DNA of 64,000 nucleotides from Gemmatimonadota bacterium. Its GTDB lineage: Bacteria; Gemmatimonadota; Gemmatimonadetes; Gemmatimonadales; GWC2-71-9. Each line of letters begins with the position of its first letter. The first letter of the stretch is position 1. Under the pieces are notes generated by a model. That model had not been told where the DNA came from, did no database searches, and worked only from the letters and a program-made list of their open reading frames with translations. The stretch is from the NCBI GenBank assembly GCA_029262195.1, contig JAJCZX010000006.1, positions 1 to 64,000 on the forward strand. Direction: 5' to 3'. The position numbers were made by a program, and so were the translations under genes. This document shows positions 43,931 to 64,000 of this stretch, piece by piece.

Positions 43931-45289
43931 CTAACTTCTGGGCGGCAAATCCTTGATTCCTCCGGGAATCTCCGCACCACCTGACGCCACCCTTTCGTTC
44001 CACGTCTCCTTTTCCGGATAACGTCGGCGTTCAGCCATCGTGATACACCCGTCGACAGGGCAAACCAGAGAGCACAGGTTGCAGCCTACGCACTCGGTTT
44101 CATCCACCCATGGGACCCGGTACGGTTCAGCCGCGGATCTTGATGCCCTGGTAGCTGCAATTTCAGCCATTGGAGCCACATGCCCTGGAACGGCCGCGAC
44201 ACCAGGTTGATGGATACACTGATGAGCACCATCGTGACAGGCAACGACGCACAATTGACAGCCAATACAACTGTTGTCATCAATCTCGGCAACGACGTGG
44301 TAGTTCAGGTCCAACTCGCCCCATTCCTTGAACCCCGGCACCGCCTTACCAACAAGTTCATTCACGGATTTCATTTTCTTTTCAGCGAGATAGTTGTCGA
44401 GCCCGTCGATCATATCTCGAACGATTCTGAAACCGTGATGCATCACGGCCGTCGCGACCTGAACACTTCCCGCTCCCAGCGCAATAAACTCTGCTGCGTC
44501 TCTCCAATCGGATATTCCACCGATTCCGCTGAGGGGGATGTTAATTCTCGGGTCACGGGCGAGCACACCAACCATCCGCAACGCAATGGGTTTGACCGCT
44601 GGACCACAGTACCCCCCGTGAGTGGAGCCGTCCGCAACTCGCGGGAGTGGAACCAGTAGATCAAGGTCTACTCCGATCAGACTCTGAACCGTGTTGATGA
44701 GCGAAATTGCGTCGGCGCCCGCTTTGCACGCGGCCAGGCCCGGTTCGGTAATGTCGCCGATATTGGGAGTCAGCTTTACAATCACAGGTATGGAAGCGGT
44801 TTCCATCACCCAGTGAACCAACTCCTCCAACACCCTGGGCTCCTGCCCCACCGCGGAGCCCATGCCACGTTCACACATCCCATGAGGGCAACCGAAATTC
44901 AGCTCGAGGCCATCACATCCCGTATCTTCGGAACGCTTGATAAGCTCATCCCACTCCTCGCGCGTTTCAACCATCAGGGAAGCGATCACCGCGTGGTCCG
45001 GGTAGCGCTTCTTAACCTCGGTCATTTCGCGGAGATTTACTTCGAGAGGCCTGTCGGTGATCAGTTCAATATTGTTTAGACCCAACATTTTCGATCCGGA
45101 GTAGTCCACCGCCCCCAACCTGCTGGACACGTTAACGATGGGATTACCCAGCGTCTTCCAAACTGCCCCGCCCCATCCTTCATCGAAGGCCCGCATTATC
45201 TGGTCACCACTGTTGGTCGGGGGCGCCGAGCCGAGCCAGAATGGATTGGGGCTTTTGATGCCAGCAAAATCAATTGAAAGGTCGGGCAC
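43931..45289 (-). CDS. preA: NAD(P)-dependent dihydropyrimidine dehydrogenase, catalytic subunit
   Basis: 452 residues. An FMN-binding TIM barrel (about 1-310) contains LNFGCPHGMCERGMG, whose cysteine is the general acid of DPD enzymes. The C-terminal ferredoxin domain (about 335-430) has two clusters, CIGCQLCVVAC and CVGCNLCSLVCPVDGC. With PreT it reduces uracil or thymine to the dihydro form using NAD(P)H. The C-terminus is about 20-30 residues longer than usual. It overlaps preT by one base at the end of the pyrimidine operon, so the whole set should be co-expressed. Confidence 0.93.
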   Translation of the reverse strand: MPDLSIDFAGIKSPNPFWLGSAPPTNSGDQIMRAFDEGWGGAVWKTLGNPIVNVSSRLGAVDYSGSKMLGLNNIELITDRPLEVNLREMTEVKKRYPDHAVIASLMVETREEWDELIKRSEDTGCDGLELNFGCPHGMCERGMGSAVGQEPRVLEELVHWVMETASIPVIVKLTPNIGDITEPGLAACKAGADAISLINTVQSLIGVDLDLLVPLPRVADGSTHGGYCGPAVKPIALRMVGVLARDPRINIPLSGIGGISDWRDAAEFIALGAGSVQVATAVMHHGFRIVRDMIDGLDNYLAEKKMKSVNELVGKAVPGFKEWGELDLNYHVVAEIDDNSCIGCQLCVVACHDGAHQCIHQPGVAAVPGHVAPMAEIAATRASRSAAEPYRVPWVDETECVGCNLCSLVCPVDGCITMAERRRYPEKETWNERVASGGAEIPGGIKDLPPRS

Positions 45290-46629
45290 TATGCAGACTC
45301 CTTCTGTTTGCCTGGAATCAGAAGCTCGTGGATCGCCCGGGCGGCCCTCTGACCCTCGTCGACAGCGTTGACAACCTCTTTGCCTCCGTTGCAGGCGTCG
45401 CCACCGGCGAAGATGAGCCGGTTGCCCGTTACGCCCGAAGCCGGATCGGTTACAATATGTCCTTTGCCATCCACTTCAACCGAGGGAAAGGACTCGATCA
45501 GGTCCCGCATGCGCGCCTGTCCGGTAGCAACGACCACCAGATCAACTGGCAAGATCCCGGTGTTTTCTCCCGTCGGCTGCCCGTTGTCGGCTCGAACCAA
45601 TTTCAGTGCCACGGCTTTCCCATCTTCGACGACGACCTCTTCGACAAGGGTATCGGTTACTACTATCACTGAATCGCGTCGGGCACCCGCGAGCTCGTGT
45701 GAATACCCGGGCATCCGATCAACAGTCCGCCGATAAAGAAGCCGCACCTCTTCAACCCCCAACTGGGCCAACTCACGAGCGGCATCCAGGGCGGTGTTTC
45801 CTCCACCGATAACTGCCGCGCTTTTGACATGGTGCACGGACATCGTGTCGCCGGTTTTTAAACCTCGTATCCACTCCACTGCGCCGATCACCCCGTCGGC
45901 ATCACCGCCGCGAACTTCAAGAGAGGAATCTCCCCCCAGGCCAACACCGAGAAAAATGGCATCGTGTTTTTCAAGCAGCTCTTCAGGAGTGATGTCCTCA
46001 CCGATGGCAACGCCAGTTTCGATCGACACACCGAGTGACTCGACGAATTCGGCCTCTTCGATCGCCCCGGGCGCTTGCATTTTGTACGGAGCGATCCCGG
46101 TGGCGTTCAACCCGCCTGGAATGTCCGACTTCTCATAGATCACGGCGCCGTGCCCCAAAAGTGCAAGGCGACCGGCACAGGCCAACGACGCCGGCCCAGC
46201 ACCGACCAGGCCCACAGAGAAACCGGTAGGCGGTTGTTTGTCGAACGAAACATCTCCTGCTCCGTTATCAGTGGCATACCGTTGGAGCCTGCCTATTTCA
46301 ATCGGTTTTCTACCCCAACCGGTGTACACACAACTCCCCTCACACAAAACTTCCACCGGACAAACGCGAGCACAGCTTGCGCCGAGAAGATTGGCCGTAA
46401 GGATTGTGTCTGCGGCACCAACAACATTTTCGGTGGCTATTCTCCGGATGAACTCCGGGATATCAATCGAGGTCGGACAGGCAACCGTGCAGGGAGCGTC
46501 GTAACAATAGAGGCAGCGGGCGGCTTCAGATAGCGCTTCCCCAGCATCATAGGCCGGATACTTAGCTACCAGGTCGTTTTCAAGTCGGACCCGGGGGAGC
46601 TGGTATTTGTTCGACATCCCACCCGTCAC
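45289..46629 (-). CDS. preT: Dihydropyrimidine dehydrogenase, FAD/NAD(P)H subunit
   Basis: 446 residues, like the GltD-type N-terminal half of mammalian DPD. The Fer4_20 cysteines are in CLYCYDAPCTVACPTSIDIP and CARVCPVEVLCEGSC; the FAD loop is GLVGAGPASLACAG and the NAD(P) loop is VIGGGNTALDAARE. It passes electrons from NAD(P)H to PreA. Its stop overlaps the preA start by one base, and its own start overlaps the aminotransferase stop by four. Confidence 0.94.
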   Translation of the reverse strand: MTGGMSNKYQLPRVRLENDLVAKYPAYDAGEALSEAARCLYCYDAPCTVACPTSIDIPEFIRRIATENVVGAADTILTANLLGASCARVCPVEVLCEGSCVYTGWGRKPIEIGRLQRYATDNGAGDVSFDKQPPTGFSVGLVGAGPASLACAGRLALLGHGAVIYEKSDIPGGLNATGIAPYKMQAPGAIEEAEFVESLGVSIETGVAIGEDITPEELLEKHDAIFLGVGLGGDSSLEVRGGDADGVIGAVEWIRGLKTGDTMSVHHVKSAAVIGGGNTALDAARELAQLGVEEVRLLYRRTVDRMPGYSHELAGARRDSVIVVTDTLVEEVVVEDGKAVALKLVRADNGQPTGENTGILPVDLVVVATGQARMRDLIESFPSVEVDGKGHIVTDPASGVTGNRLIFAGGDACNGGKEVVNAVDEGQRAARAIHELLIPGKQKESA

Positions 46630-47948
46630 GCTCGTGACATCTCCTCGAAGGATTCGACAAATATGCTCAGCGCTTCATCGATCGCGGCCTCACCGACGGT
46701 CAGGGGTGGCGCTATTCGGATGACGTTTCCATACAAACCACCCTTGCCTATTAGCATCCCGCGTTTCTTGGTCGCCTCAAAAAGAGCGACAGCGGCGGTC
46801 GGGTTCGGAGTCCGATCGCCGTTCGTTTCGTCTACGACCAACTCGAAAGCTTGCATCAAACCCATTCCTCTAACGTCCCCGATTACATCCGGGAACCTCG
46901 ATTGGATTTCTTCCAAACCCGCCCGAAAACGTTTGCCCATTGTTTCGGCGTTCGCCGGAAGGTTTTCCTGCTCCATGACATCGAGCGTTGCGTTGGCTGC
47001 CGCGGCAGAAATCGGGTTTCCCCCGAATGTCGAAATCGTCAATTTCTTGAACGCATCAGCGATTTCAGATTTAGCTATCGTGATTCCGAGTGGCATTCCG
47101 TTGGCAACACCTTTGGCCATCGTCATGATGTCCGGTTCAACGTCCCAGTGCTCAATCCCAAACATCTTAGAACCCGTCCGACCGAACCCCGTCTGAACCT
47201 CGTCGCAGATGAAGACACCTCCGTATTTCCGAACTATCTCAACCGCCATTTTGAAGTACTCCGGCGGCGGCGTCACGAAGCCGCCAACCCCCTGGATCGG
47301 CTCAGCCAGCATTCCGGCGATTTCCCCGCAAGTGGTGGTCTGAATCAATTCTTCAAGATCCGACGCACAGCGCACTTCACAATCGGGGTATTTCAGCCCA
47401 AACGGACAGCGGTAGCAATACGGCGCAGGCGCGTGTTTGATACCGGCCACCTGAGAAGGACCCGCCCTCCAGGGTGCGTGACCCGTGAGTCCCTGGGCCA
47501 GCATACCCCGTCCAGAGTAGCCATGCCGAAGTGCAATGATTTCAGAGGCACCTGTATAGACCTGTGCGAGGATGACAGCGGTCTCATCGGCGCTGGTACC
47601 CGAAGCCGTGAAGATGCTCTTTTGGAGATCTCCCGGTGTGATGCGAGCCAACCGTTCCGCAAGGTCTACTGTCGGTTGGGTCGGGTAGAGACTGGATACA
47701 TGCCCGAGCTTGTCGATCTGATCTTTGGTGGGTCCGGTAACGCGAGGATCGCAGTGACCGATGGAAACAGTCAGGATTCCGCCGAAAAAATCGAGATAAC
47801 TGTTGCCGTCAACGTCGGTTACCCTCAGGCCGTCGCCCGACTCCAGCACCAGAGGATCAGCATAGTAATTGGCTACGGCGGGCCAGAGGTATTTCTCGTG
47901 TTTGTCTTTTATCTCCTGGGCCGACGATTTCACTTCGACTCCATTCAC
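46626..47948 (-). CDS. Class III aminotransferase, AGXT2-like (beta-alanine / 3-aminoisobutyrate)
   Basis: 440 residues. The PLP lysine is in MTMAKGVANGMPLG, and the aspartate holding the pyridine N is in FICDEVQTGFGRTG. The cysteine-rich segment PYCYRCPFGLKYPDCEVRC is characteristic of the AGXT2-like branch, which includes beta-alanine-pyruvate and D-3-aminoisobutyrate-pyruvate activity. In this operon it should convert beta-alanine (from uracil) and 3-aminoisobutyrate (from thymine) to malonate and methylmalonate semialdehyde. Four-base overlaps with both neighbours. Confidence 0.88.
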   Translation of the reverse strand: MNGVEVKSSAQEIKDKHEKYLWPAVANYYADPLVLESGDGLRVTDVDGNSYLDFFGGILTVSIGHCDPRVTGPTKDQIDKLGHVSSLYPTQPTVDLAERLARITPGDLQKSIFTASGTSADETAVILAQVYTGASEIIALRHGYSGRGMLAQGLTGHAPWRAGPSQVAGIKHAPAPYCYRCPFGLKYPDCEVRCASDLEELIQTTTCGEIAGMLAEPIQGVGGFVTPPPEYFKMAVEIVRKYGGVFICDEVQTGFGRTGSKMFGIEHWDVEPDIMTMAKGVANGMPLGITIAKSEIADAFKKLTISTFGGNPISAAAANATLDVMEQENLPANAETMGKRFRAGLEEIQSRFPDVIGDVRGMGLMQAFELVVDETNGDRTPNPTAAVALFEATKKRGMLIGKGGLYGNVIRIAPPLTVGEAAIDEALSIFVESFEEMSRA

Positions 47949-49321
47949 GAGCGGCTCCTCTCGATATAGCGACCGGCACCTCTTTCGACTTTCAAGTCGC
48001 CGTTCCTGTATTGGATTCGTCCATCGACCACAACGTGCGAGGCGAGGCCTTTAACCTTGAACCCCTCGAAAATATTCCGGTCGACTTTGTGGTGGTGCGT
48101 TGAAGCCGAGATCGTACCGGTGGCTTCGGGATCCCACACCACCAGATCCGCGTCCGAACCGACCATCAAAGCACCCTTTCGCGGATACATACCGAATATT
48201 TTGGCCGCCCGCGTCGAAGTAACGTCAACGAACTCGTTCAATGTCAGCCAACCCTTACCGACACCGTAGGTGTACATCAGAGCGAGTCTATGCTCGATGC
48301 CCGCCGCTCCGTTGGGAATCTTTCTAAAGTCATCTTTCCCCATGTCCTTCTGCCCTACCTGATTGAACGGGCAGTGATCCGTAGCCAGGCAATGCAACGT
48401 TCCCGCCTTTAGAGCTGCCCAGAGAGGTTCCTGGTGTCCGAGCGGTCTTATCGGGGGCGACATCACATAGGCAGCACCTTCAAAATCCGGTTTGTCGTAC
48501 ACCGAATCGTCCAGCAAAAGGTACTGAGGACAGGTTTCACCCCAGACGGTCTCGCCGCGCAGTCGCGCCCTGGAGATCGCTTCTATTGATTCCTGACAGG
48601 TAACGTGTACGACATAAAGCGGCACTCCGTTGAGACGGGCAAGTTGCGCAGCGCGCTCGGTTGCTTCCCCTTCGACAGGAGTGGGGCGCGAGCGGGCGTG
48701 ATATTTTGGAGAAGTATGCCCCTCACCGAACAATTTATTCTGCATCTCCACTACCTGGTCCCCATGCTCAGCGTGCACGGTGACAAGTCCCTGGAGCTGT
48801 GCCGCAGTTTTCATGATGTTAATCAATTCATCGTCGAAAACGCCGATAGCCCCACGATAGGCCATGAACGTCTTAAACGAGGGGATCCCTTCTTCGTCGA
48901 TGCACTTCCGCATCCATTCGGCGGTCTTATCTCCCCACCAGGTGACCGCCATATGGAAGGCATAGTCGGCAACCGACTTCTCGGCCTTTTCGTGCCACCA
49001 CTTCAGGGCCTTCATCATGTCTTCGTCACGCTGAGGAATCACGAAGTCAATTATGGTCGTCGTCCCCCCGGCAACTCCGGCAGCAGTTCCAGTCTCAAAA
49101 TCGTCAGCAGAGACGGTGCCCATGAAGGGAAGCTCCATGTGCACATGCGGGTCGATCCCCCCGGGAAACACATATTGCCCTGAGGCATCAACGACCTCAT
49201 TTCCGGAGCTCGCCTCAATGTTCGGTCCTATTTCGACAATTTTTCCGTCTTCGCACCTGACGTCGTTAACCCATTGATCAAGAGCAGTAACCAAGGTTCC
49301 GTTTTTTATCACTACACCCAT
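47945..49321 (-). CDS. hydA: Dihydropyrimidinase (D-hydantoinase family)
   Basis: 458 residues of the amidohydrolase superfamily. Metal ligands are visible in order: GIDPHVHME (two His), the carboxylated lysine in SFKTFMAYRG, VHAEHGD, VVHVTCQES and ATDHCPF. The substrate-stereochemistry loop is like that of dihydropyrimidinases. It opens dihydrouracil or dihydrothymine to N-carbamoyl-beta-amino acids. AAAGGAT precedes the ATG. The 92-base leader between it and the upstream gene is unusual (see the G-rich element). Confidence 0.93.
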   Translation of the reverse strand: MGVVIKNGTLVTALDQWVNDVRCEDGKIVEIGPNIEASSGNEVVDASGQYVFPGGIDPHVHMELPFMGTVSADDFETGTAAGVAGGTTTIIDFVIPQRDEDMMKALKWWHEKAEKSVADYAFHMAVTWWGDKTAEWMRKCIDEEGIPSFKTFMAYRGAIGVFDDELINIMKTAAQLQGLVTVHAEHGDQVVEMQNKLFGEGHTSPKYHARSRPTPVEGEATERAAQLARLNGVPLYVVHVTCQESIEAISRARLRGETVWGETCPQYLLLDDSVYDKPDFEGAAYVMSPPIRPLGHQEPLWAALKAGTLHCLATDHCPFNQVGQKDMGKDDFRKIPNGAAGIEHRLALMYTYGVGKGWLTLNEFVDVTSTRAAKIFGMYPRKGALMVGSDADLVVWDPEATGTISASTHHHKVDRNIFEGFKVKGLASHVVVDGRIQYRNGDLKVERGAGRYIERSRS

Positions 49322-49343
49322 CTTCGTATCCTTTCAAAAATAC

Positions 49344-49413: not shown

Positions 49414-50283
49414 CTAAATCAATTCAACCATCTCATCGTAAGTCTCAGGCCTGCGGTCCCGATAAAACTGCCAGACCTGGCGAACCTCTTCGATAACATC
49501 CAGGTTCATTTCTGCGGTAATCATTTCGTCTTTGTCCTCTGAGGCTTCTGCGAGGAACGCACCCCGGGGATCCACGAAATAACTCGACCCGTAAAACTTG
49601 CCTATGTCCCAGGGAGCCTCGGTGCCAACGCGATTGATGCACCCCATGAAGTAGCCATTGGCCACGGCGTGGGCCGGCTGCTCAAGCTTCCAGAGGTATT
49701 GAGACAAACCAGCCACTGTCGCGGAGGGATTCATGACGATCTCAGCACCGTTTAGTCCGAGCAACCGCGCTCCTTCCGGGAAATGTCGATCGTAGCAGAT
49801 GTACACGCCGACCTTTGCGTAGGCTGTTTCGAAAACGGGGTAGCCGAGATTGCCGGGTTTGAAGAAAAATTTCTCCCAGAAGCCAGAGGTCTGCGGTATG
49901 TGGTTCTTGCGATACTTGCCGAGGTATTTGCCGTCAGCGTCTATCACCGCTGCAGTGTTGTAGTAGACCCCCGCCTGTTCGCGCTCGTAGGTCGGCACCA
50001 CGATTACCATCGAATATTTCTTCGCGTACTCCGACATGAGGTCGGTCATCGGCCCTGGCACAGCTTCCGCAGCCTCATACCATCGTTTGTCCTGACTGCA
50101 ACAAAAGTATGGGCCGTCGAAGATCTCCTGGAGACACAGAACTTGCACACCGGCTTTGCCAGCCTCTTCAATCAGTGGGATATGTTTTTCTAAACCGGCT
50201 TTGCGGATTTCGGCAACCGGCACGCTTTCATCGTTGATGGGGTTGGCGCATTGTATTAAACCACCTTTGACAATTCTTGCCAC
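49414..50283 (-). CDS. Beta-ureidopropionase (nitrilase-superfamily N-carbamoyl amidohydrolase)
   Basis: 289 residues. The catalytic Glu-Lys-Cys triad is in CLQEIFDGPYF, GKYRKNHIPQ and VYICYDRHFPEG; HFPEGAR is the usual form in beta-ureidopropionases. It hydrolyses N-carbamoyl-beta-alanine to beta-alanine, CO2 and ammonia, the third step of reductive pyrimidine breakdown. It lies 14 bases after mmsA and 92 bases before hydA on the minus strand. Confidence 0.92.
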   Translation of the reverse strand: MARIVKGGLIQCANPINDESVPVAEIRKAGLEKHIPLIEEAGKAGVQVLCLQEIFDGPYFCCSQDKRWYEAAEAVPGPMTDLMSEYAKKYSMVIVVPTYEREQAGVYYNTAAVIDADGKYLGKYRKNHIPQTSGFWEKFFFKPGNLGYPVFETAYAKVGVYICYDRHFPEGARLLGLNGAEIVMNPSATVAGLSQYLWKLEQPAHAVANGYFMGCINRVGTEAPWDIGKFYGSSYFVDPRGAFLAEASEDKDEMITAEMNLDVIEEVRQVWQFYRDRRPETYDEMVELI

Positions 50284-50297: not shown

Positions 50298-51743
50298 TTA
50301 GTCCCAGCGTGAGATAAAGACTTTGCGATCGGTGTAGAAATCAAAAGACTCTCGGCCGTGGGCTTTAAGGTCTCCGAAGAACGACCCTTTGGCGCCTCCG
50401 AATCCGAAGAATGACATAGGGGTAACCACGCCGATGTTGACTCCCGCCATACTGGCCTCAACACGGTATTTAAACGTCCGGGCGCTCTTCCCGCTGGTCG
50501 TGAAAATCGAGCATGCGTTGGCGAGCGGATGCTTCTTAATGATCTCAAGAGCTGATTCGAGATTCTCTGCTTTCAATATCCCGAGTACGGGACCAAAAAT
50601 CTCCTCCCGAGCAATCACCATCTCAGGCGTCACGTTGTCGAAAACGCACGGACCTATAAAATGCCCATCTGAATTAATCTCGACCCCCCGACCGTCCACG
50701 ATAAGGTCAGCTCCCTCATCGACGCCCTGTTGCACGTAACCCCGAACCTTTTCCAGGTGAGCGGCAGAAACAACCGGACCCATGGTGACTCCCTCTTCAA
50801 GACCGTTGCCAACTTTGAAAGCTTTGGCGTTTGCAACGACGCGCGAGCGGATTTCCTCTTCGCAACCTCCCACAGCCAAAATCAAACTTGCGGCCAGACA
50901 CCTTTCGCCGGCGCAGCCGTACGCCGAATTAGCAATGGCCTCGGCAGCCTTATCCATGTCGGCATCGGGCATAACGATCATGAAATTCTTTGCCCCACCC
51001 AACGCCTGCACCCGTTTGCCGTGTCCGGCGGCTGTCTTATAGACATACTCAGCGATCGGACTTGAACCAACAAACGACACGCCCTGAATGTCTTTGTGTT
51101 CAAGGAGCCCGTTCACTACATCTTTGCCGCCGTTTACCAGGTTCAGCACTCCCTTTGGGAACCCTGCTTTATCAATCAGGTCGAATATGAACCTTTGACA
51201 GAGGGGTACCTGCTCAGACGGCTTACATATGAACGTGTTGCCGCAGGCTACCGAGAAGGGGTAAAACCACAGGGGAACCATCGCCGGGAAATTGAAGGGA
51301 GCGATGCAAGCAAAAACGCCCATAGGTTGCCGAACCGATTCGCAATCGATACCGGCAGCTACGTCTTCCAGAGTTTGCCCCATCAACAATGAGGGGGCTC
51401 CACAGGCTACCTCAACACACTCTATACCGCGTTGAACGCTGCCGCGCGACTCGTCGAGCGTTTTGCCGTGTTCCATAGTCAGGATGCGCGACAGTTCTTC
51501 TTTGTTCTCCTCAAGGAGATGCTTCAGCGTGAACAAATAGCGAGCACGTTTTGCAGGGGGCACCATCCGCCACTCGGCAAACGCCGCATCTGCCGCCTTC
51601 ACCGCGCGATCGACATCCGCCGCTCCACCCATAGGGACCTTAGCCAGCAGGTCGCCAGTGGCGGGGTTTCTAATCTCTCTGGTTTCAGAAGCGAGTGAAT
51701 CGACCCATTGGCCGTTTAAGTAATCTTTGATTGTTTCAGTCAT
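50298..51743 (-). CDS. mmsA: Malonate/methylmalonate semialdehyde dehydrogenase (CoA-acylating)
   Basis: 481 residues from MTETIKDYLNGQW at 51743; the longer frame is promoter DNA. Typical MSDH motifs are present: PFNFPAMVPLWF, the nucleophile in CAGERCLAAS, FVGSSPIAEYVY, and the C-terminal GGAKGSFFGDLKAHG. It converts malonate semialdehyde to acetyl-CoA and methylmalonate semialdehyde to propionyl-CoA, completing uracil and thymine catabolism. It is the first gene of the pyrimidine operon; a candidate promoter lies 30-60 bases upstream. Confidence 0.93.
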   Translation of the reverse strand: MTETIKDYLNGQWVDSLASETREIRNPATGDLLAKVPMGGAADVDRAVKAADAAFAEWRMVPPAKRARYLFTLKHLLEENKEELSRILTMEHGKTLDESRGSVQRGIECVEVACGAPSLLMGQTLEDVAAGIDCESVRQPMGVFACIAPFNFPAMVPLWFYPFSVACGNTFICKPSEQVPLCQRFIFDLIDKAGFPKGVLNLVNGGKDVVNGLLEHKDIQGVSFVGSSPIAEYVYKTAAGHGKRVQALGGAKNFMIVMPDADMDKAAEAIANSAYGCAGERCLAASLILAVGGCEEEIRSRVVANAKAFKVGNGLEEGVTMGPVVSAAHLEKVRGYVQQGVDEGADLIVDGRGVEINSDGHFIGPCVFDNVTPEMVIAREEIFGPVLGILKAENLESALEIIKKHPLANACSIFTTSGKSARTFKYRVEASMAGVNIGVVTPMSFFGFGGAKGSFFGDLKAHGRESFDFYTDRKVFISRWD

Positions 51744-51803: not shown

Positions 51804-51907
51804 GCGGTTAAGGCGGGCCTTTCCCAAAAACGGAACCCCCTGACTTGCCTGAGGTATTAAAACGGCACTCACGCGGGCCGTCGCGAACTCTTTCCGGAAC
51901 CAGCATT

Positions 51908-55248: not shown

Positions 55249-56481
55249 TCAGTTCATCATCTTTTCCACCATTTCAAGCGTCGGCTCGACCGGATCCGGA
55301 CGCCTGACGGCCCTCGCCGCTGCATCCACGTCCTTCAACCCTGACCCGGTCACCGCCAGAACGATTCTTTCGTCAGCCCCCACGATCCCATCGGCGACCG
55401 CCTGCCTGAGACCCGCAACCGAAATTGCCCCCGCAGGTTCGGCAAAAACCCCTGTACTCGAGGCGAGGACCCTGATGGAATCGAGGATGTCGCGGTCTTC
55501 AACAATAACGCCCGCCCCTCCACTGGCCTGTACCATTTTCACGCACTGAAAAGCATTTCGTGGCATCAAAACATTGAGACTGTCGGCGACGCTGTCAGCC
55601 ATGGGATCAGGTACCGGAACTGTCCCTGCGCGCAACGCAGTAGCAATCGATGCCGACCGTGAAGGCTGCACCGCGATCAACCGTGGCACACTTTCCAGCA
55701 ACCCCGCCCTGCGAAGGTCGGCAAACCCCTTCGCTATGCCCGATATGATCACGCCATCTCCGACGGGCACCAACACCACATCCGCTTTTCCCCAACCGCG
55801 AATTTGATGAGCTATCTCAAGGGCCATCGTCTTTTTGCCTTCGATCGTAAACGGATTCAACGCCGTGTTTCGATTGTACCAACCAAACGCCTGGCATGCC
55901 GCCAGACAAAGTTCAAAGGCGTCATCGTAGGTGCCCAGCACGGGAATAAGATTGATGCCGTAGGAGAGCATTTGAATGAGCTTCGCCTCTGGAGCCTTTG
56001 CCGGCACAAAGGCTACGGCCTTTTTGCCGGCGGCCGCAGCCATGGCGGCCAGCGCAGTCGCTGCATTGCCAGTCGAAGCCGCGGCGATGGTATCGATCCG
56101 GTACTCGCTGGCTTTGGCGACCACAAGCTGGGAAGCCCTATCCTTGGTCGAACCACTCGGGTTACGAGTGTCATCCTTGACCCACAAATATTCCACTCCA
56201 ATAGCGGCGGCCAGCGCGTCAGTTTTTATGAGAGGAGTGCCCCCCACCGGGATCGGTGGTAGATGGCCTGCATCATTGATAGGAAGAAATCCCGTCAGAA
56301 ACTCACTGGACCCGAAATCGTCTATCCACCTGTCCGGAAGGTGGTCGATAACAACCTCCAGAACGCCTCTTGTCTCTCCACCGATTCGCTGTTGTGCCGA
56401 ACACGCATCACAAACGAGTCGGGTTGGTTCTTCAGCGTATGTAGCGCCACACTCAACGCACCGGAGTTTAAACGAGGCCAT
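55249..56481 (-). CDS. Threonine-synthase-like PLP enzyme with zinc-ribbon N-terminus
   Basis: 410 residues from MASFKLRCVECG; GGAGG lies five bases before this ATG. Cys-pairs in RCVECG and LVCDACS form a zinc-ribbon-like N-terminus as in many threonine synthases. The PLP lysine is in NPSGSTKDRAS (usually NPSGSFKDR), and the glycine loop is PVGDGVIISG. It could be a true threonine synthase or a beta-eliminating enzyme recruited to the cluster, where it follows ygeW by 93 bases. No other threonine biosynthesis gene is near, which favours a catabolic role. Confidence 0.8.
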   Translation of the reverse strand: MASFKLRCVECGATYAEEPTRLVCDACSAQQRIGGETRGVLEVVIDHLPDRWIDDFGSSEFLTGFLPINDAGHLPPIPVGGTPLIKTDALAAAIGVEYLWVKDDTRNPSGSTKDRASQLVVAKASEYRIDTIAAASTGNAATALAAMAAAAGKKAVAFVPAKAPEAKLIQMLSYGINLIPVLGTYDDAFELCLAACQAFGWYNRNTALNPFTIEGKKTMALEIAHQIRGWGKADVVLVPVGDGVIISGIAKGFADLRRAGLLESVPRLIAVQPSRSASIATALRAGTVPVPDPMADSVADSLNVLMPRNAFQCVKMVQASGGAGVIVEDRDILDSIRVLASSTGVFAEPAGAISVAGLRQAVADGIVGADERIVLAVTGSGLKDVDAAARAVRRPDPVEPTLEMVEKMMN

Positions 56482-56574: not shown

Positions 56575-57549
56575 TCACATCGTCAGCGCCATGAGCGCTT
56601 TTTGAACATGCAACCTGTTCTCCGCCTCGTCATAAACCACTGATTGCGGACCATCGATCACGTCGTTCGTTACCTCTCTACCCCGGTCAGCAGGGAGCGG
56701 GTGCATATAGATCATCTCTTTGTGCCCCAGGTCCATGTGCTTTTGCTCGCAACGCCAGGTAGGATATTTCTCTATCAACCCAATTCCTTCGTCGTGATCT
56801 TCTGTGACAACTAGCGGGCCCCATGATTTGGGAATGACTACGTCGGCATCCTGGAATGCACTTTCAAATTCGTTGGTGATGTTGAACTTCGATCCCGACG
56901 CTGCCGCATTTTCTTTTGCCTGAGCTTCAATCTCCGGAAGAAGTTTGAACTCCGGCGGGTAGGCCAGTGTGACGTCCATACCGAAACGGGGCATCATCAA
57001 AATTAAACTCTGCGGTACAGAGAGAGGTCGGACGTAGTTCGGGGCGCTCGTCCACGCGACTCCAATCTTTAGCCCTTTGGTTTCACCAAATTTTTCACGA
57101 ATCGTCAGGTAGTCGGCAAGTATTTGACATGGGTGATAGATGTCGCATTGCATACTCAATAACGGGATGCTTGCAAATTCGGCGACCTCCTGCAAATACT
57201 GATTCCCCTCACCGTGGGCACAATGCCTTATCGCGATGCCATCGCCATAGCGGGATAGGACGTTCGCCGTGTCTCTGGCGTTCTCGCCGTGGCTTATTTG
57301 CATTTTGTCAGGCGACAGGAAAATACCGTGCCCCCCGAGTTGCGTAATCCCGGTTTCAAACGAATTGCGCGTCCGGGTAGAAGCGTCGAAGAAAATCATG
57401 TACAGTGTTTTCAACTCGAGCAGAGGCATCGGCTTGCCGGCAGCCTTAGCTTTCTTCAACTCGGCCGCCAGTGCGAACAGAGTGTTAAGTTCGTCTACCG
57501 ACCAATCCTGGGTCGTAATGAAATCCCGTCCCTTGAGTTTCGAATCCAT
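56575..57549 (-). CDS. ygeW: YgeW-type knotted carbamoyltransferase
   Basis: 324 residues of the aspartate/ornithine carbamoyltransferase superfamily. The carbamoyl-phosphate loop is DASTRTRNSFE, the second anion site is IAIRHCAHGEG, HPCQILADY is the HPxQ motif, and MHPLPADRG is the C-terminal signature. The length and the insert around KSWGPLVVTEDHDEG fit YgeW, a catabolic transcarbamylase of the ygeW-ssnA cluster. It probably releases carbamoyl phosphate from an N-carbamoyl amine. Its ATG overlaps the ygeY TAA by one base. Confidence 0.9.
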   Translation of the reverse strand: MDSKLKGRDFITTQDWSVDELNTLFALAAELKKAKAAGKPMPLLELKTLYMIFFDASTRTRNSFETGITQLGGHGIFLSPDKMQISHGENARDTANVLSRYGDGIAIRHCAHGEGNQYLQEVAEFASIPLLSMQCDIYHPCQILADYLTIREKFGETKGLKIGVAWTSAPNYVRPLSVPQSLILMMPRFGMDVTLAYPPEFKLLPEIEAQAKENAAASGSKFNITNEFESAFQDADVVIPKSWGPLVVTEDHDEGIGLIEKYPTWRCEQKHMDLGHKEMIYMHPLPADRGREVTNDVIDGPQSVVYDEAENRLHVQKALMALTM

Positions 57550-58775
57550 TATTTGTTCCCGTCCTTCATCAACTCGTCCTTGCGTCGGGCAATAATTTCG
57601 GGAAAAACGCTGTACACCGCCGTTGCCTTAACCAGATCTTCCGTCGCTACCCATTCTCCGGTGGTGTGGGCCAATTCTTCCAATCCGGGAGCGAAACCCA
57701 CCGACGGGATTCCATGTCTCCCCATACTGGCCACACCATTGGTTGAAAACGACCAGCGTGAAATTTTGGGAGCCTCGCCGAGTACCGATTCGACGGCTTC
57801 GGCCATCCCCTGGACCAGCGGGTGGTTTTCCGGTACCACCCAGGTGGGATAAAACTTCTCCTGTTCAGCGGGTTCGCCTCGCCAACTGGTCTCTTTGTAT
57901 TGCAGCACTTCGACCCTCGCATCGCCGAGCGACGGCAGCCCGTTGATTTCCTGCAGCACTGATTCCACCGTCTCTCCGGTGCTCATCCTGCGGTCAATGA
58001 ACATCGTCGCGCTATCTGGTACAGCGTTAAGACTGGGGGTGGTCGCCTCAATGTATGTCACGGCGACGGTGCCTTTACCAAGAAACTCATCGTCTTTCAA
58101 GGTCTTATTGAGCTGTTCTATTTCAGAAATAATCGGTGCGGCCTTGTAAAGAGCGTTCACGCCCAGGTCACACTGTGCAGCGTGACAGGACTCTCCTTTG
58201 GTGGTAATCGTCAACTCGACTCGACCCCGTTGACCGCGATAGACATCCATATCAGTGGGCTCTCCGATCACCACTACATCCGGAACGATCTTTTCTTTTT
58301 CAATCAGATGAAGCAGGCAATACCCGTCGCATTCTTCTTCCATTACGGTCGCCGACAAATAAATCGTAACGTCATCGGGCACACCCCGTTCCATCAGCAG
58401 TTTCGTTCCGTAGGCCATGCAGGCGACTGAGGGCAGTTCATCAACGGCCCCCCTTCCCCACACCTTGCCATCTTCGTGTTTGCCCTCAAACGGATCGAAG
58501 TCCCACGCCTCAGGGTCGCCGACGCCTACACAATCAATGTGGCCGTCCATGAGAATTTTGAGAGGTCCGTTACCGATACGCGCGATGACGTTACCCAGCT
58601 TGTCGAAAAAGACTTCATCGAAACCAAGTTTTTCGTATTCTTCTTTTATCCGCGCGCAACGCTCTCCCTCTTTCATGCTTTCACTTCTTATTGCGATCAT
58701 CTCCCTCAAAAAAGAGATTACGTCTTTTTCATATTTTCTTGCGCCGTCAAGCGCGGCAGCTACAGTATCGTTCAT
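57549..58775 (-). CDS. ygeY: YgeY-type M20 family metallohydrolase
   Basis: 408 residues from MNDTVAAALDGARKYEK; the frame upstream overlaps the PLP gene and is spurious. M20 metal sites are visible: LMDGHIDCVGVGDP, GRGAVDELPSV, VMEEECDGY and GEPTDMDVYRGQRG. YgeY belongs to the purine-linked gene set of E. coli and gut anaerobes, where it is thought to hydrolyse an N-acyl or N-carbamoyl intermediate. It is followed directly by ygeW and separated from the PLP gene by 67 bases carrying a strong hairpin. Confidence 0.9.
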   Translation of the reverse strand: MNDTVAAALDGARKYEKDVISFLREMIAIRSESMKEGERCARIKEEYEKLGFDEVFFDKLGNVIARIGNGPLKILMDGHIDCVGVGDPEAWDFDPFEGKHEDGKVWGRGAVDELPSVACMAYGTKLLMERGVPDDVTIYLSATVMEEECDGYCLLHLIEKEKIVPDVVVIGEPTDMDVYRGQRGRVELTITTKGESCHAAQCDLGVNALYKAAPIISEIEQLNKTLKDDEFLGKGTVAVTYIEATTPSLNAVPDSATMFIDRRMSTGETVESVLQEINGLPSLGDARVEVLQYKETSWRGEPAEQEKFYPTWVVPENHPLVQGMAEAVESVLGEAPKISRWSFSTNGVASMGRHGIPSVGFAPGLEELAHTTGEWVATEDLVKATAVYSVFPEIIARRKDELMKDGNK

Positions 58776-58813
58776 TGCGTTCTCTGATTCTTTGTTGGGG
58801 AGCGGATGGCGGT

Positions 58814-58840
58814 GTGCGGGGAGCGGTAATCTCCCCGCAC
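58814..58840 (-). promoter_or_regulatory. Perfect 10-bp intercistronic hairpin
   Basis: GTGCGGGGAG (58814-58823) pairs perfectly with CTCCCCGCAC (58831-58840) around a 7-base loop. It lies just after the PLP gene stop and before ygeY, in the minus-strand operon. There is no U tract, so it may protect the mRNA or set different dosage upstream and downstream. Confidence 0.55.
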
Positions 58841-58842
58841 AA

Positions 58843-60291
58843 TCACGCAGCCGACGTGCCCACTCCGGTTTCATTGTTGAATTCTTTGATCTTCTTATCC
58901 AACTCTGGGATTTGTGCGGCGAGGTCACTCCAGAAAATGGGGCTCCACAATTCGTCCAGTTCCTCGACAGTTTTTCCCTGCTGCTCAACCCAGGTGAAGT
59001 ACTTGAGATTGTGCATGGCTTTACGATCGGTAAAGGTCATCTCTTTCATATTGTCAGTGGTTGCACCGGCAAGGTATCGCGCGAAATGGGCAACCGCATC
59101 CAGCTGCGTGTATTCCCCTTTTTCAGACGATAGTTCCTCAAGTCGTGTCAGGTAGAGGTCAGAAGAATCGGTGAGGGATAAGAACAACACGTCATTCGAA
59201 TCCATCTTGAAATATTTCGCCGTCTTGATCGCGGAAAGCATATTGCAGATCCCTGAAATCCCCATCAGGTCAAGCTGATCAATGGTCTCCTGAGGGACCC
59301 CCTGGCGTTGGAGCTCTTCTCGGCCCGGCCCTTCGTTGAACAGCCTCAAAAGCGACATCGCAGCTTCATCGTCAATAGCCGTAACCACATCCGTATTGCG
59401 AGCGTTGTGGATCCAGGGAACATGCTTGTCTCCTATGCCCTCAATCCGATGCCCCCCGAATCCGGCCCGCAACAAGGTTGGGCATTGCAACGCTTCTGCA
59501 GCCGTAATGCGAGCCCCCGGGAAGCGATCCTTTATATAGTCACCCGCAGCCAGGGTGCCGGCTGAACCCGTCGCGCCGACCCAGGCAGCCATCCGACTAT
59601 TCGAGTCCGAGATAGAACGGAAGACCTCTTCAGCCGCCGGTCCCGTAACTCCATAGTGCCAGAGGTAATTCCCGAATTCGTCGAATTGGTTGAAAACGAC
59701 AACTTCCGGGCGGTCTTTCTTTATCTGAAGGCATGCATCGAAAATTTCTTTGACGTTACTTTCACAGCCCGGCGTGGCGATGATCTCAGCGCCGATCGAC
59801 TCAAGCCACTCGAAGCGTTCGCGGCTCATTTCTTCGGGAAGTATTGCAATTGCGTCGCAGCCCAGGAGGGCGCTGTCGAACGCACCACCTCTGCAGTAAT
59901 TCCCGGTAGACGGCCAGACCGCTTTCTGCGTCTGGGGATCGAACTCGCCCGATACCAACCTCGGTGCCAGGCATCCGAAGGCGGCTCCAACCTTGTGGGC
60001 ACCCGTGGGAAAATGCTTACCAACCAGGCCCACAATTCGGGCCGGCACGCCTGTCAGTTCAGACGGCAACTCGAGGTAATTGACGGGACCGAACCCCCCG
60101 GTCGTCGGGTCGTTGTGCCAGGTAATCCGGAACAGGTTCACGGGGTCCCGATCTTGCATGCTAACTAAGCCCAAACGGGCCACTATGTTAGGTTCGATTA
60201 ATCCCGGGTCCCGCATCTGTGCGAGTGTTGGGATAAGAACTCCGCGCTCACGGCATCGTTCAATCGCGCTTTTTCTTGAAGCTTGTGTCAT
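58843..60291 (-). CDS. Fold-type-II PLP enzyme of the ygeW-ssnA cluster
   Basis: 482 residues. The PLP lysine is likely in HFPTGAHKVGAAFG, and the glycine-rich phosphate loop is VGATGSAGTLAAG; the fold matches cysteine synthase/tryptophan-synthase-beta proteins. It is not YgeX (diaminopropionate ammonia-lyase), whose active-site region reads differently, but it occupies that place in the cluster. A role as an ammonia-lyase acting on a diaminopropionate-like intermediate is inference. Four-base overlap with ssnA. The N-terminal 80 residues and the charged C-terminus are unlike typical cysteine synthases. Confidence 0.78.
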   Translation of the reverse strand: MTQASRKSAIERCRERGVLIPTLAQMRDPGLIEPNIVARLGLVSMQDRDPVNLFRITWHNDPTTGGFGPVNYLELPSELTGVPARIVGLVGKHFPTGAHKVGAAFGCLAPRLVSGEFDPQTQKAVWPSTGNYCRGGAFDSALLGCDAIAILPEEMSRERFEWLESIGAEIIATPGCESNVKEIFDACLQIKKDRPEVVVFNQFDEFGNYLWHYGVTGPAAEEVFRSISDSNSRMAAWVGATGSAGTLAAGDYIKDRFPGARITAAEALQCPTLLRAGFGGHRIEGIGDKHVPWIHNARNTDVVTAIDDEAAMSLLRLFNEGPGREELQRQGVPQETIDQLDLMGISGICNMLSAIKTAKYFKMDSNDVLFLSLTDSSDLYLTRLEELSSEKGEYTQLDAVAHFARYLAGATTDNMKEMTFTDRKAMHNLKYFTWVEQQGKTVEELDELWSPIFWSDLAAQIPELDKKIKEFNNETGVGTSAA

Positions 60292-61670
60292 TTACTCTTT
60301 CCTGGAGAACCGAGGAAGCCCGTGCCGGTGTCAAGTTCATGAAAGCGCCGCCAGAGGTCGGGAGACGCAGTGCGTGCACGTGCGCTCAGGGCTTCAACGT
60401 CCACAGTTGTCGGTTGATAATTTTCCAGAACGGTCTTTCCGCGAGCGATCGTGTGGCTCACCCTTGCTTCCGAAACGCCATAGGCAAGATAGGCGAACAG
60501 GTTTTGTTCATCCAATGGGGTTATCTCGGATCCGTCCAAAACGATCAGGTCCGCCGGGGCATCTTCAACAAGTTCGCCCAACAACGGTTCCTCAAAGAAC
60601 CTCCGAGCGACCAGAACATTGTTACCCAGGAGATTGGGAAGGTGTTCGAAACCAGAATTCGCATCCCCCGTCGAGGCGCGATGCATCAAATACGCGAACC
60701 GCAAAGCTTTCAGTACGGAGGAAGACATTCCATCTGTGCCGAGGCATACTTGAACCCCGCGCGCTGCCACCTCCGGCACGTCCAAACGGCCCACGCCGTT
60801 GTTGGCGTTGGACTCCGGATTGTGAATGATTGAGGCCCCACTCTCGGCAATCCGTTCGTAAGCGCCGTCGGGAAGATGTATACCGTGCGCCAGCAAAGAT
60901 TTTTCATCGAGGATGCCAAAGTCGTGTAATCTTTCAACCGGACCTTTTCCAAATGCCACAAGCGACGCAGAAACGTCCACGGGATCTTCGGCTACATGGA
61001 TATGGCAACCTTCACCGCTATAGGTGGCAGCGACGTTGGACATCGTTTGATCCGAAACCGTAAAACTCGCGTGTAATCCCACCAGACCCTTCAATCGCGG
61101 TTGTTGGCGGCAGGCCTCAATGAACCGTCTGTTTTCGGCGATACCCCGCGCAGCCTCCTCGACTCCATTGCGGTCCGTCACTTCGTAACACAACGCAGCA
61201 GAAAGCCCCACCTCCGCCACAGCACTACCGATCAGGTCCAAAGATCCATCAATAAAAGAAGGTGAGGCGTGGTGGTCGAACACCGTGGTACATCCCCATC
61301 GAATGCAGTCGAGGAGGGAGAGGTGAGCAGATATCTCCACCGTTTCCTTATCAAGCGCGCGGTCAAGACGCCACCAGAGAGTATCCAACACATCCGAAAA
61401 GGAGTTCATCGGAGCACCAGGGTTGAGTCCCCGCGCGAGCGCCGAATAAAAATGGTGGTGAAGATTAACAAGCCCGGGCATGATGATTCCTCCGCGGGCA
61501 TCGATTTCCTCCGCCCCACCGTGCATCCCCTTTAAGTCGGACTCCTCCCCAATGGCAACAATGCGTTCTCCGTCAAACACCACTGCTCCACGGGAAATAA
61601 TCACCGGTCCGCCAGGCGACACGCCCGGCATCGACGTCACCACAGTGCCGTTGCGAACCATTCGCGTCAT
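60288..61670 (-). CDS. ssnA: SsnA-type aminohydrolase (amidohydrolase superfamily)
   Basis: 460 residues. Metal and active-site residues are visible in GLVNLHHHFYS, GLHASFTVS, CHIHVAEDP, LAHGIHL and LGTDGMSS, the pattern of cytosine/guanine-deaminase-like amidohydrolases. SsnA accompanies ygfK and xdhD in E. coli and in gut purine degraders and probably acts on a purine-derived ring or amidine. It overlaps ygfK and the PLP gene by four bases each. Confidence 0.9.
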   Translation of the reverse strand: MTRMVRNGTVVTSMPGVSPGGPVIISRGAVVFDGERIVAIGEESDLKGMHGGAEEIDARGGIIMPGLVNLHHHFYSALARGLNPGAPMNSFSDVLDTLWWRLDRALDKETVEISAHLSLLDCIRWGCTTVFDHHASPSFIDGSLDLIGSAVAEVGLSAALCYEVTDRNGVEEAARGIAENRRFIEACRQQPRLKGLVGLHASFTVSDQTMSNVAATYSGEGCHIHVAEDPVDVSASLVAFGKGPVERLHDFGILDEKSLLAHGIHLPDGAYERIAESGASIIHNPESNANNGVGRLDVPEVAARGVQVCLGTDGMSSSVLKALRFAYLMHRASTGDANSGFEHLPNLLGNNVLVARRFFEEPLLGELVEDAPADLIVLDGSEITPLDEQNLFAYLAYGVSEARVSHTIARGKTVLENYQPTTVDVEALSARARTASPDLWRRFHELDTGTGFLGSPGKSK

Positions 61671-63601
61671 TGACCAACCCCTTCCGGTTTCACCGGATTC
61701 GGCCTGGACGATTCGTAAATCGTTTCTCTCACCCTGCGAAGCCGCTCGCCGACAGTACCTTCAACATCGCCATCTTCCCGGATCAATATTCCTTCGACTC
61801 TTCCGAACATTTTATTCCCGTCGTACCAGAATCCATCGAAGGTAGATTCCTCGAACCCGCTCCGCGTTGCGAACACACGTTCTTTTACTTTGAATGGCGC
61901 TCCATTTTCGGGGCAGAATATTTCACAGTTCGAGCATTCGTTGCAGAAGTCATCGACAAACGCCAATTGATGTTCTTCGGCAACACCATCACCAGGAGCG
62001 ACATCATACGAAAAGAAGGCGTCGTTGGGGCAAACGGCAATGCAGATATCGCAATTGAGGCAGTCGTACAACGCCAATTCGCTATCCACCATACGAGGCG
62101 CTTTGGAATTGGCGGCCGCCTGGTACCGCGGGTTCTCTTCCAAAGTCGGCACGAACTGTCGGCCATTAAATCGTCCAGCCACCCTGCCAAATTGGGTCTT
62201 GAATTTTTCGGCGGACAATCCGGCGTCTCCGGCAATTCCCCCCGCGACAACGGGAAGATTGTTCGAAGACGTCGCCGCTATACGATCCAATTGTTCTCGG
62301 GACGCATTTCTTCCGGCCATGTCCAAAAAGGCCTCCGCAAACGCCTCAGACGCCTGTCCCGTTGCCGCCAGAACGTAGGCCTCGCGACTGGTCACTCCGA
62401 GTTTATCCATCTCCCTGGCAAGTGCCTTCAGGTAGGCAGGCAGGCGTCCGTAACCGCCCTTCCGGAGAAGGTCTGTGCAGGTAGTAATGGGCACCATCCC
62501 ACAGGCTACTGCATCCGGAAAATTTCGGGCATCAATACCGGCGGAGAACGAAACCGGAAAATCGAACCCAACGTCCTCGCGGACCATTTGCATGAGGTTC
62601 ATGGATATCACATGCAGTGGAGGACCGGAGACGTACATGTAGGGATCGCTCTGTGTCGGGAAAACCGATTCATCATTGGCAACGACAAGAGTGTTCGTGA
62701 ATTTCGCCCCGACGATCGAGCCCCGATCCTCGGCCACCGTTCTTAGGTTCGTTAAAATCCCCAGTGCGTCCTCATATTTGAGGTCAGCTTCGAAGGCTTC
62801 TCTCTTGAGCTGGTATCGAGTGTAACCGAGCCGATCAACCAACAGCTCACGCACTCTGTCGAAGCCGAGGAGGGTCGGGTTTAATTTGACAATCGCGTTG
62901 AACCCTAACTCTTCGATCAAATACCGTGTTATGGCTTCTATCTCGTCCGCGGGACATCCGTGGAAGGTGGATAACGTCACGCAGTCAGAAATCGTATCCG
63001 ACAGCTCTGTATCCCTGTAAACAGCCAGTTCCCCATCCAATTCGCCTCGCAGTTCATCAAAAAGATGTGCTCCGCTCCGCAAATCGTTCAAAAAACCGGT
63101 TACTGAACCGGATTTGATACCGGCAAGGTCATAACCAACGCTGGTGTCAAAGACAGTTTCCAATCCCTCGTTCGAAGGGAATCGGCCAAAACACTGTGTT
63201 TGCTTCAGGATTTCGATGAGAAACGCTGCTTTGGCGTACTCCCGCACCGATTGATCGATCTTCAACTCCTGAGACCACTCGACGTTTAAGCCAACGTTTG
63301 GCGCATGGATGCAAGGTCTGGGAATCTCAAGTTCATCGTTTACCTGGACGGTCTTGAGTTCGATTATTCTGGCTCCCCCCAACCAGGACAAGACGATGTT
63401 CTGTGCCAGCTGAGTATGCGGACCTGCGGCCGGACCGACCGGAGTGGAAGCCTTACGACCGAAATGCATCGCTGAAAAATCGTAGGCAGAGTCGGGAACC
63501 CACCACTTTCTAACAGGCAGGTCGAAGATGGCATCACTGGCCTCTACTTCGTGTTTCATCCGCAAGAGGAGGTCGCGAAAAGGAACCGGCCTCAGGCTCA
63601 T
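61667..63601 (-). CDS. ygfK: YgfK-like oxidoreductase, short form without flavoprotein domain
   Basis: 644 residues against about 1000 in E. coli YgfK. The N-terminal DHOD-like barrel (about 1-470) includes SAMHFGRKASTPVGPAAGPHTQLAQN and TLSTFHGCPADEIE. The C-terminal ferredoxin domain (about 515-600) has CLNCDICIAVCPNDAF and CNECSNCEIFCPENGAPF. The middle GltD-like FAD/NAD(P) part of full YgfK is absent. The reading frame is intact, so this looks like a natural short form needing a separate electron donor. Likely reduces a purine-derived substrate. Overlaps xdhD and ssnA by four bases. Confidence 0.85.
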   Translation of the reverse strand: MSLRPVPFRDLLLRMKHEVEASDAIFDLPVRKWWVPDSAYDFSAMHFGRKASTPVGPAAGPHTQLAQNIVLSWLGGARIIELKTVQVNDELEIPRPCIHAPNVGLNVEWSQELKIDQSVREYAKAAFLIEILKQTQCFGRFPSNEGLETVFDTSVGYDLAGIKSGSVTGFLNDLRSGAHLFDELRGELDGELAVYRDTELSDTISDCVTLSTFHGCPADEIEAITRYLIEELGFNAIVKLNPTLLGFDRVRELLVDRLGYTRYQLKREAFEADLKYEDALGILTNLRTVAEDRGSIVGAKFTNTLVVANDESVFPTQSDPYMYVSGPPLHVISMNLMQMVREDVGFDFPVSFSAGIDARNFPDAVACGMVPITTCTDLLRKGGYGRLPAYLKALAREMDKLGVTSREAYVLAATGQASEAFAEAFLDMAGRNASREQLDRIAATSSNNLPVVAGGIAGDAGLSAEKFKTQFGRVAGRFNGRQFVPTLEENPRYQAAANSKAPRMVDSELALYDCLNCDICIAVCPNDAFFSYDVAPGDGVAEEHQLAFVDDFCNECSNCEIFCPENGAPFKVKERVFATRSGFEESTFDGFWYDGNKMFGRVEGILIREDGDVEGTVGERLRRVRETIYESSRPNPVKPEGVGQ

Positions 63602-64000
63602 TTTGGTGCCCTCGATTTGGGAACCAGCCCTCGCGCAGCTGGGGCGTCAACCATCGGCAGAGTAAATCGATCGATACCATCAAAAGACCGCAGGGCACCG
63701 GCCACCGCACCTGCGGTGGGTACCAACCCGATCTCCCCCACCCCTTTTGATCCGTATCCGCCCAACTCGTCGGGGACCTCGATAAGAATGACATCTACCT
63801 CTGGAGTGTCTTTTGCACGCATCACGCCAAGGTCCTTCATGTCGGTTGAATCAGGCATTCCGTCGGTACACGGGAGATCTTCAGACAGCGCATAACCGAG
63901 ACCCATATGGACGGCCCCTTCTATCTGACCGGCACACATCAGCGGATTGATCGCTCGACCCACGTCGTGTGCCGCGACAACCTTTTCGAGACGACCATTG
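63598..64000 (-). CDS. xdhD: XdhD-like molybdenum hydroxylase, C-terminal end (partial)
   Basis: The last 133 codons are visible; the gene continues past the right edge. AHDVGRAINP and GAVHMGLGYALSED are typical of the large molybdopterin subunit of the xanthine dehydrogenase family, and GSKGVGEIGLVPTAGA carries the catalytic glutamate of GVGE. With YgfK and SsnA next to it this fits XdhD, which is tied to purine hydroxylation or reduction. The stop overlaps the ygfK start by four bases. Confidence 0.85.
   Translation of the reverse strand, partial: NGRLEKVVAAHDVGRAINPLMCAGQIEGAVHMGLGYALSEDLPCTDGMPDSTDMKDLGVMRAKDTPEVDVILIEVPDELGGYGSKGVGEIGLVPTAGAVAGALRSFDGIDRFTLPMVDAPAARGLVPKSRAPK

Follow-up and report, generated by a model that had tools for sequence, protein, structure and literature searches.

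A putative variant of the reductive urate pathway with a short YgfK, adjacent to a reductive pyrimidine operon in a Gemmatimonadota genome

A purine operon with a probable variant of the reductive urate gene set

Contig 6 (JAJCZX010000006.1; 92,632 bases) of a Gemmatimonadota genome (4.21 Mb, 42 contigs, 92.6% complete) carries in its first 64,000 bases, hereafter the window, two operons on the minus strand: a purine operon including xdhD, ygfK, ssnA, ygeY and a ygeW-like gene, and a reductive pyrimidine operon. On balance, and with moderate confidence, the gene content of the purine operon points to a variant of the reductive urate pathway that would be fed by ferredoxin (or PreT) and would borrow the hydantoinase HydA of the neighbouring operon. 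The pathway itself is known; the locus would hold a coherent variant of it, with a reductase belonging to a short clade, and the pyrimidine operon beside it is of the standard kind.

The reductive urate (2,8-dioxopurine, "yanthine") pathway was published in 2025 (PMC12507026). According to that paper, purified enzymes of Escherichia coli and Clostridioides difficile carry out the reductions, XdhD reducing urate to 2,8-dioxopurine and YgfK reducing it further; SsnA and HyuA then open the rings, YgeW and YgeY strip the ureido groups, and YgeX performs the cleavage that yields pyruvate. The order of ureido cleavage is said to be open in a second, independent study (PMC12990295). The preliminary description of the window had tied the ygeW/ygeY/ygfK/ssnA/xdhD set to anaerobic purine or urate catabolism, an attribution strengthened by the biochemical demonstration that the E. 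coli set degrades urate (PMC12507026).

Genes were named from NCBIfam profile scores (bits, compared with the cut-off of each model), Pfam domains and pairwise alignment to E. coli proteins. The purine operon, which continues upstream past the window as far as contig position 71569, has a xanthine dehydrogenase of its own. In transcription order, it encodes the small and large subunits of this enzyme (XdhA, TIGR02963, 620 bits, cut-off 467; XdhB, TIGR02965, 1228 bits, cut-off 850), XdhC (256 bits, cut-off 162), a small deaminase-like protein (named from its sequence, with no NCBIfam match at E 1e-30), XdhD, YgfK and SsnA, followed by a pyridoxal phosphate (PLP) enzyme, YgeY, a carbamoyltransferase, a threonine-synthase-like PLP enzyme, a VapBC-like pair and a permease. 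Neighbouring genes overlap by 4 bases at three junctions (xdhD with ygfK, ygfK with ssnA, ssnA with the PLP gene), and SsnA (PRK07203) and YgeY (PRK13004) are both above cut-off. The earlier account of a tightly overlapped purine gene set thus stood for the named genes and these three overlaps, with the corrections that YgfK is short, that YgeW scores under its own model cut-off and that XdhD shares only 25% identity with E. coli XdhD.

In the proposed pathway, bases would be deaminated and xanthine oxidised to urate by XdhAB, XdhD would reduce urate to 2,8-dioxopurine, and the short YgfK would reduce the ring at its flavin mononucleotide (FMN) barrel. SsnA would open the first ring; the second would be opened by a hydantoinase, putatively the HydA encoded next door in the pyrimidine operon. 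YgeW and YgeY would take off two ureido groups, one as carbamoyl phosphate, and the two PLP enzymes would convert 2,3-diaminopropionate to pyruvate and ammonia in the place of YgeX.

A single clade of short YgfK proteins

The window YgfK aligned to E. coli YgfK (1032 aa) at residues 5-405 (40%) and 898-976 (41%) only. The FMN part and the iron-sulfur (Fe-S) tail are present, and the flavin adenine dinucleotide (FAD) part of the full-length form is absent. Because this middle part is missing, the protein scored 431 bits, far short of the 835 of its model cut-off, and surveys using that model may therefore miss such proteins.

Among 91 loci examined for YgfK length, 38 were short and 46 long, with 7 left unassigned. 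A tree of the FMN part alone was built from 82 loci and E. coli (83 rows), after removal of the 7 unassigned loci and of L116 and L123, whose N-terminus is missing. The 36 short proteins formed one side of a single branch, opposite the 47 long ones, E. coli among them (support 100/100, and present in all 200 bootstrap trees); the FAD/NAD(P)H module was therefore lost or gained once in this sample of 83. Named short members belonged to at least five phyla (Acidobacteriota, Myxococcota, Planctomycetota, Gemmatimonadota and Actinomycetota), and of 30 named short loci, 18 had XdhD and 18 had SsnA beside the short YgfK. In an alignment of 28 short proteins, eight Fe-S-tail cysteines were invariant, and Pfam recognised only one dicluster region.

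The structure predicted for the short YgfK (pLDDT 88.2, pTM 0.91) matched the FMN part of pig dihydropyrimidine dehydrogenase with a Z of 25.2 and an rmsd of 2.8 across 292 residues, and many dihydroorotate dehydrogenases matched equally well. Foldseek also placed the pig enzyme first; its TM-score for the full model was low, at 0.34, since the domains are arranged differently, but the FMN barrel taken by itself superposes well. This predicted likeness says nothing decisive on substrate or partner. No published description of the short clade was found in the open-licence PMC literature searched. If its members act as proposed, the reductive urate pathway would reach members of at least the five phyla named above.

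Hydantoinase placement and linkage of the two operons

No hydantoinase or HyuA lies within the purine operon, and HydA of the pyrimidine operon is the only hydantoinase above cut-off in the genome (TIGR02033). In a survey of 121 genomes (YgfK at E 1e-20, PreA at E 1e-60), YgfK was found in 10 and PreA in 14. Eight of the ten YgfK genomes each had one gene above the TIGR02033 cut-off; of the two others, G007 had a partial hydantoinase gene running off its contig and G024 an allantoinase-type gene within the purine cluster. Placement followed the presence of PreA: in PreA-bearing genomes (G000, G007, G078, G080) the hydantoinase was located in the pyrimidine operon, and in genomes without PreA it was found in a purine cluster (G024, G076, G082, G092) or at another place (G036, G074); in G082 its neighbours are SsnA and a 36% PLP homologue. 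The gene would thus appear to shift between operons of the two kinds, and its placement suggests that the pyrimidine-operon HydA can serve both pathways. Judged from these gene positions, HydA sharing would be the best-supported link between the operons, sharing of PreT being the bolder proposal. HydA occurred in 6 of 80 named loci, whose flanks span at most 10 kb.

Three points weigh against the variant urate pathway as proposed. The window HydA grouped in its tree with pyrimidine-operon and Bacteroidales sequences, and not with purine-linked ones. The G007 hydantoinase is cut by the contig end and the genomes are 89-100% complete, so that absences may be gaps. Finally, XdhD, at 25% identity, is not the orthologue of E. 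coli XdhD.

It is also conceivable, if rather unlikely, that these are two ordinary, independent neighbouring operons that share nothing, another amidohydrolase opening the hydantoin ring. Such independence agrees with the occurrence of either operon alone in relatives (6 of the 10 YgfK genomes were without PreA, and 10 of the 14 PreA genomes without a YgfK match) and with G078, where the two gene sets lie on separate contigs of 93 and 22 kb. For the same reasons, the joint locus put forward in the preliminary description is not supported as a rule, and the unlinked arrangement that it had regarded as contrary evidence was encountered in part, since G078 holds the sets on different contigs. 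Against independence, no second hydantoinase above cut-off exists in the genome, and YgfK and PreA were both present in 4 genomes compared with ~1.2 expected (Fisher p 0.016 without kinship correction, two of the four genomes being of the same genus).

In the other genomes with both operons the contigs break. In no second genome were the operons found joined, and most are uninformative on this point. G009, a further genome with PreA, has SsnA, the PLP enzyme, YgeY and YgeW on a short contig. In G001, of the window genus and 79% complete, the pyrimidine genes run to the edge of a contig, and neither YgfK nor the PLP enzyme gave a match.

Electron supply to XdhD and the short YgfK

The XdhD of the window is of the TIGR03311 type and has no FAD domain. 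The partner genes anticipated earlier were recovered in part: xanthine dehydrogenase and selD exist in the genome, but no ygfM-like gene or FAD partner adjoining xdhD was found on contig 6. As both XdhD and YgfK are without a flavin/NAD(P)H partner here, they probably draw on reduced ferredoxin, by analogy with described enzymes. Ferredoxin has been proposed as the donor for C. difficile enzymes without the same parts (PMC12507026), and uracil reduction driven by ferredoxin was shown for a PydA without FAD domain (PMC7332683). A possible source of reduced ferredoxin is the 2-oxoacid:ferredoxin oxidoreductase encoded in the window. By on-paper arithmetic, which is not a result, the 2 electrons from xanthine to urate and the 2 from pyruvate to acetyl-CoA would equal the four spent in the two reductions, a balance that would explain the presence of xanthine dehydrogenase in the operon.

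Alternatively, PreT might be a shared electron-entry subunit passing NAD(P)H electrons to both PreA and the short YgfK, so that PreT and short YgfK together would equal one long YgfK. PreT aligned to residues 455-847 of E. coli YgfK, the stretch missing from the window protein, it carries the Fer4_20 domain that the short YgfK is without, and the two genes share a locus. This arrangement is nevertheless doubtful: of the 30 genomes with named short-YgfK loci, just 3 had PreA (E 1e-60), in one case at 43% identity, and three of the 10 YgfK genomes (G024, G036 and G082) gave no PreT match. Both counts weaken PreT as a general donor for short YgfK. No donor gene common to the short-YgfK loci was seen among the 45 listed clusters of open reading frames (ORFs), which include many reverse-frame ORFs and were inspected by eye and with query genes, without a family search.

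End steps of the purine operon

YgeX (PRK08206) was above cut-off in none of the 10 YgfK genomes, with weak matches in 2. With E. coli YgeX as query, 19 other loci gave matches of at most 64 bits, every one inside the threonine-synthase-like gene. The 482-aa PLP enzyme was found in 29 and the ThrC-like enzyme in 27 of the 80 named loci; they occurred together in 23, on the same strand in all 23 and within 1.3 kb in 22. We infer from this distribution that the two PLP enzymes stand in for YgeX. In PMC12507026, YgeX was marked by PF00291, which both PLP enzymes match too, and that survey therefore could not tell them apart. Two PLP homologues on rhizobial plasmids had no partner of the pair among the matches listed; a RidA gene lies close to the homologue from Bosea and might, as a weak indication, suit an elimination reaction.

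A further variant of the cluster was also observed: G082 (L143) and G074 (L150) carry a more distant PLP homologue (36%) beside SsnA, with a YgfK end and YgeW also present in G074. At L016, L017, L020, L027, L029 and L033 (mostly Acidimicrobiia-labelled), ureidopropionase-like amidases adjoin the ThrC-like gene and possibly perform another ureido cleavage.

The window carbamoyltransferase, one of three in the genome (the other two on contigs 34 and 30), scored 212 bits compared with the YgeW cut-off of 500. In the tree it grouped with E. coli YgeW and the proteins of similar clusters (96/97), apart from the two genome paralogues; the outer joins are unsure because of long branches. Recovery of ATP from the carbamoyl phosphate released by YgeW, as suggested earlier, is possible given a carbamate-kinase-like gene on contig 38, but this gene is below cut-off (315 bits, cut-off 358) and unlinked to the operon.

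An SLC23-type permease with a nucleobase motif

The nearest Protein Data Bank entry to the permease was SLC23A1 (459 bits, compared with 74 for UraA and 56 for UapA), with ~239 of 456 residues identical to the mammalian protein (~52%). Microbial-animal SLC23 pairs are quoted at 24-33% identity in PMC5972032, well below the ~52% of this bacterial permease. It was also 50-53% identical to haloarchaeal plasmid proteins carrying the same annotation name (ten matches listed of 507 records), and the loci of relatives showed no counterpart. According to PMC5972032, nucleobase transporters of the NAT family bear the motif T/S-F/Y-A/S-Q/E/P-N-x-G-x4-T-G/R/K, compared with S-S-S-P-N in ascorbate transporters; the window permease reads S-Y-S-E-N-I-G-AIGL-T-R, the nucleobase form. 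Because of this motif, and as there is no other permease in the two operons, the single importer proposed earlier for both is plausible on sequence grounds.

The fullest form of sharing, in which the two operons would be one working unit, with PreT feeding PreA (uracil) and the short YgfK (2,8-dioxopurine), HydA opening rings for both and one SLC23-type permease importing both kinds of base, is improbable.

Selenium-related annotations

A role of the operon in reducing selenate or in selenium metabolism is very improbable. It is suggested by the NCBIfam names of YgfK and SsnA, by the selD gene of the genome and by two environmental papers reading ygfK as selenate reduction or selenium cycling (PMC12008989, which takes ygfK of UBA5794 actinobacteria as selenate reductase, and PMC8857189). 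Urate breakdown is a better match for an operon with a ring hydrolase, a carbamoyltransferase, PLP enzymes, a xanthine dehydrogenase and a nucleobase-type permease, and urate and 2,8-dioxopurine are the substrates of the E. coli enzymes (PMC12507026). The gene neighbourhoods found here thus argue against the selenium reading of ygfK.

The PLP gene was considered as a selenoprotein gene from a "1 TGA" mark in four relatives; tblastn gave no stop inside the aligned regions, and the TGA was taken as an ordinary stop codon. The selD gene (L151, contig 1, 50719-51648) has an in-frame TGA at GAG-x-ACK, so SelD may hold selenocysteine, and "1 TGA" was also marked in selD of 8 further relatives.

Organization of the locus

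The named pyrimidine and purine genes of the preliminary description were all present where it had placed them, with the family scores of Table 1, which are too high for chance matches to be a concern. Past the permease lies a plus-strand, apparently frame-broken gene, then mmsA, the ureidopropionase-like gene, hydA, the aminotransferase gene, preT and preA. The reductive pyrimidine set is complete in one operon, although its ureidopropionase and aminotransferase are assigned from gene position and broad family only. The operons appear to be separate units: the broken gene (51845-52946) parts the permease gene from mmsA, and a VapBC-like pair (54529-55205) stands after the thrC-like gene and before that of the permease. 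A promoter scan between the operons found 0, compared with 2.4 expected by shuffling, which is uninformative.

Table 1. Features of the window, with the scores used to name them (bits; model cut-offs in brackets where given alone).
Feature	Position	Strand	Basis and remarks
xdhD, C-terminal end	63598..64000	-	cut by window end; whole gene contig 6 63598-66252, 884 aa; TIGR03311 881 (830)
ygfK, short form, 644 aa, without FAD/NAD(P)H module	61667..63601	-	TIGR03315 431/835 bits, mainly model 3-399 of 1012
ssnA	60288..61670	-	PRK07203 452 (444); TIGR03314 420, under 455.5
PLP enzyme, 482 aa, first of pair	58843..60291	-	PF00291 64; no curated subfamily above cut-off
ygeY	57549..58775	-	PRK13004 485 (321); start set at MNDTV methionine by choice
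ygeW-like carbamoyltransferase	56575..57549	-	tree placement with E. coli YgeW
threonine-synthase-like PLP enzyme, second of pair	55249..56481	-	PF00291 234; ThrC models under or barely over cut-off (TIGR00260 170 vs 167)
NCS2/SLC23 permease	52990..54372	-	459 to SLC23A1 chain; motif SYSENIGAIGLTR
mmsA	50298..51743	-	TIGR01722 557 (448.5); start chosen
beta-ureidopropionase-like amidase	49414..50283	-	nitrilase-type; aguB model 240, under 410; position
hydA, dihydropyrimidinase/D-hydantoinase	47945..49321	-	TIGR02033 586 (393)
aminotransferase, beta-alanine assumed	46626..47948	-	class III family; no model above cut-off
preT	45289..46629	-	36% identity to E. coli PreT, nearly whole length
preA	43931..45289	-	PRK08318 629 (335)
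2-oxoacid:ferredoxin oxidoreductase, alpha + beta	6160..9005	+	alpha 621 (483); beta PRK11866 243, under 402

The VapC of the pair within the purine unit scored 135 bits against TIGR00028 (cut-off 73.6), and the plus-strand frames at 51845-52946 lie in different phases, resembling one frame-broken secreted (beta-propeller-like) gene. Elsewhere in the window, a 16S rRNA gene on the minus strand occupies 1-1425, its 3' end truncated where the window begins. A Gemmatimonadetes probe matched this gene with 2 mismatches and an Acidobacteria probe did not match; among 576 plasmid records with a 16S match, the ten listed were at most 82% identical, and one further record fell in the 95-99% band at unspecified coverage. 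The stretch 36079-40259 holds an ADP-forming acyl-CoA synthetase-like gene (622 bits, under the cut-off of 1300) and an acetate-kinase-like gene, which could give ATP from the acetyl-CoA of both operons.

Comparison with known systems

The pyrimidine operon resembles Pyd operons with PreT and PreA in having mmsA, a ureidopropionase-like gene, hydA, an aminotransferase gene, preT and preA in one operon. It has no permease gene inside, whereas the G007 pyrimidine operon has an NCS1 permease gene between the aminotransferase gene and preT. The permease has ~239 of 456 residues in common with mammalian SLC23A1, of the SLC23/SVCT clade, but has SYSEN instead of SSSPN.

In architecture, the short YgfK resembles PydAc and UacX, FAD-less FMN reductases described in PMC7332683 and PMC12507026, which likewise consist of an FMN barrel and an Fe-S tail with no FAD domain. 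Unlike these, the window protein belongs to the YgfK family, and it has one Fe-S tail compared with the two Fdx domains of the C. chromiireducens PydAc.

With the reductive urate pathway of E. coli and C. difficile, the purine operon has in common an XdhD-type molybdenum hydroxylase, the FMN and Fe-S parts of YgfK, SsnA, a YgeW-like carbamoyltransferase, YgeY and a xanthine dehydrogenase nearby, as E. coli also has one adjoining its urate cluster. It differs in a YgfK without the FAD/NAD(P)H module, two PLP enzymes instead of YgeX, the absence of HyuA from the operon and of YgfM next to XdhD, and a carbamate-kinase-like gene that is unlinked.

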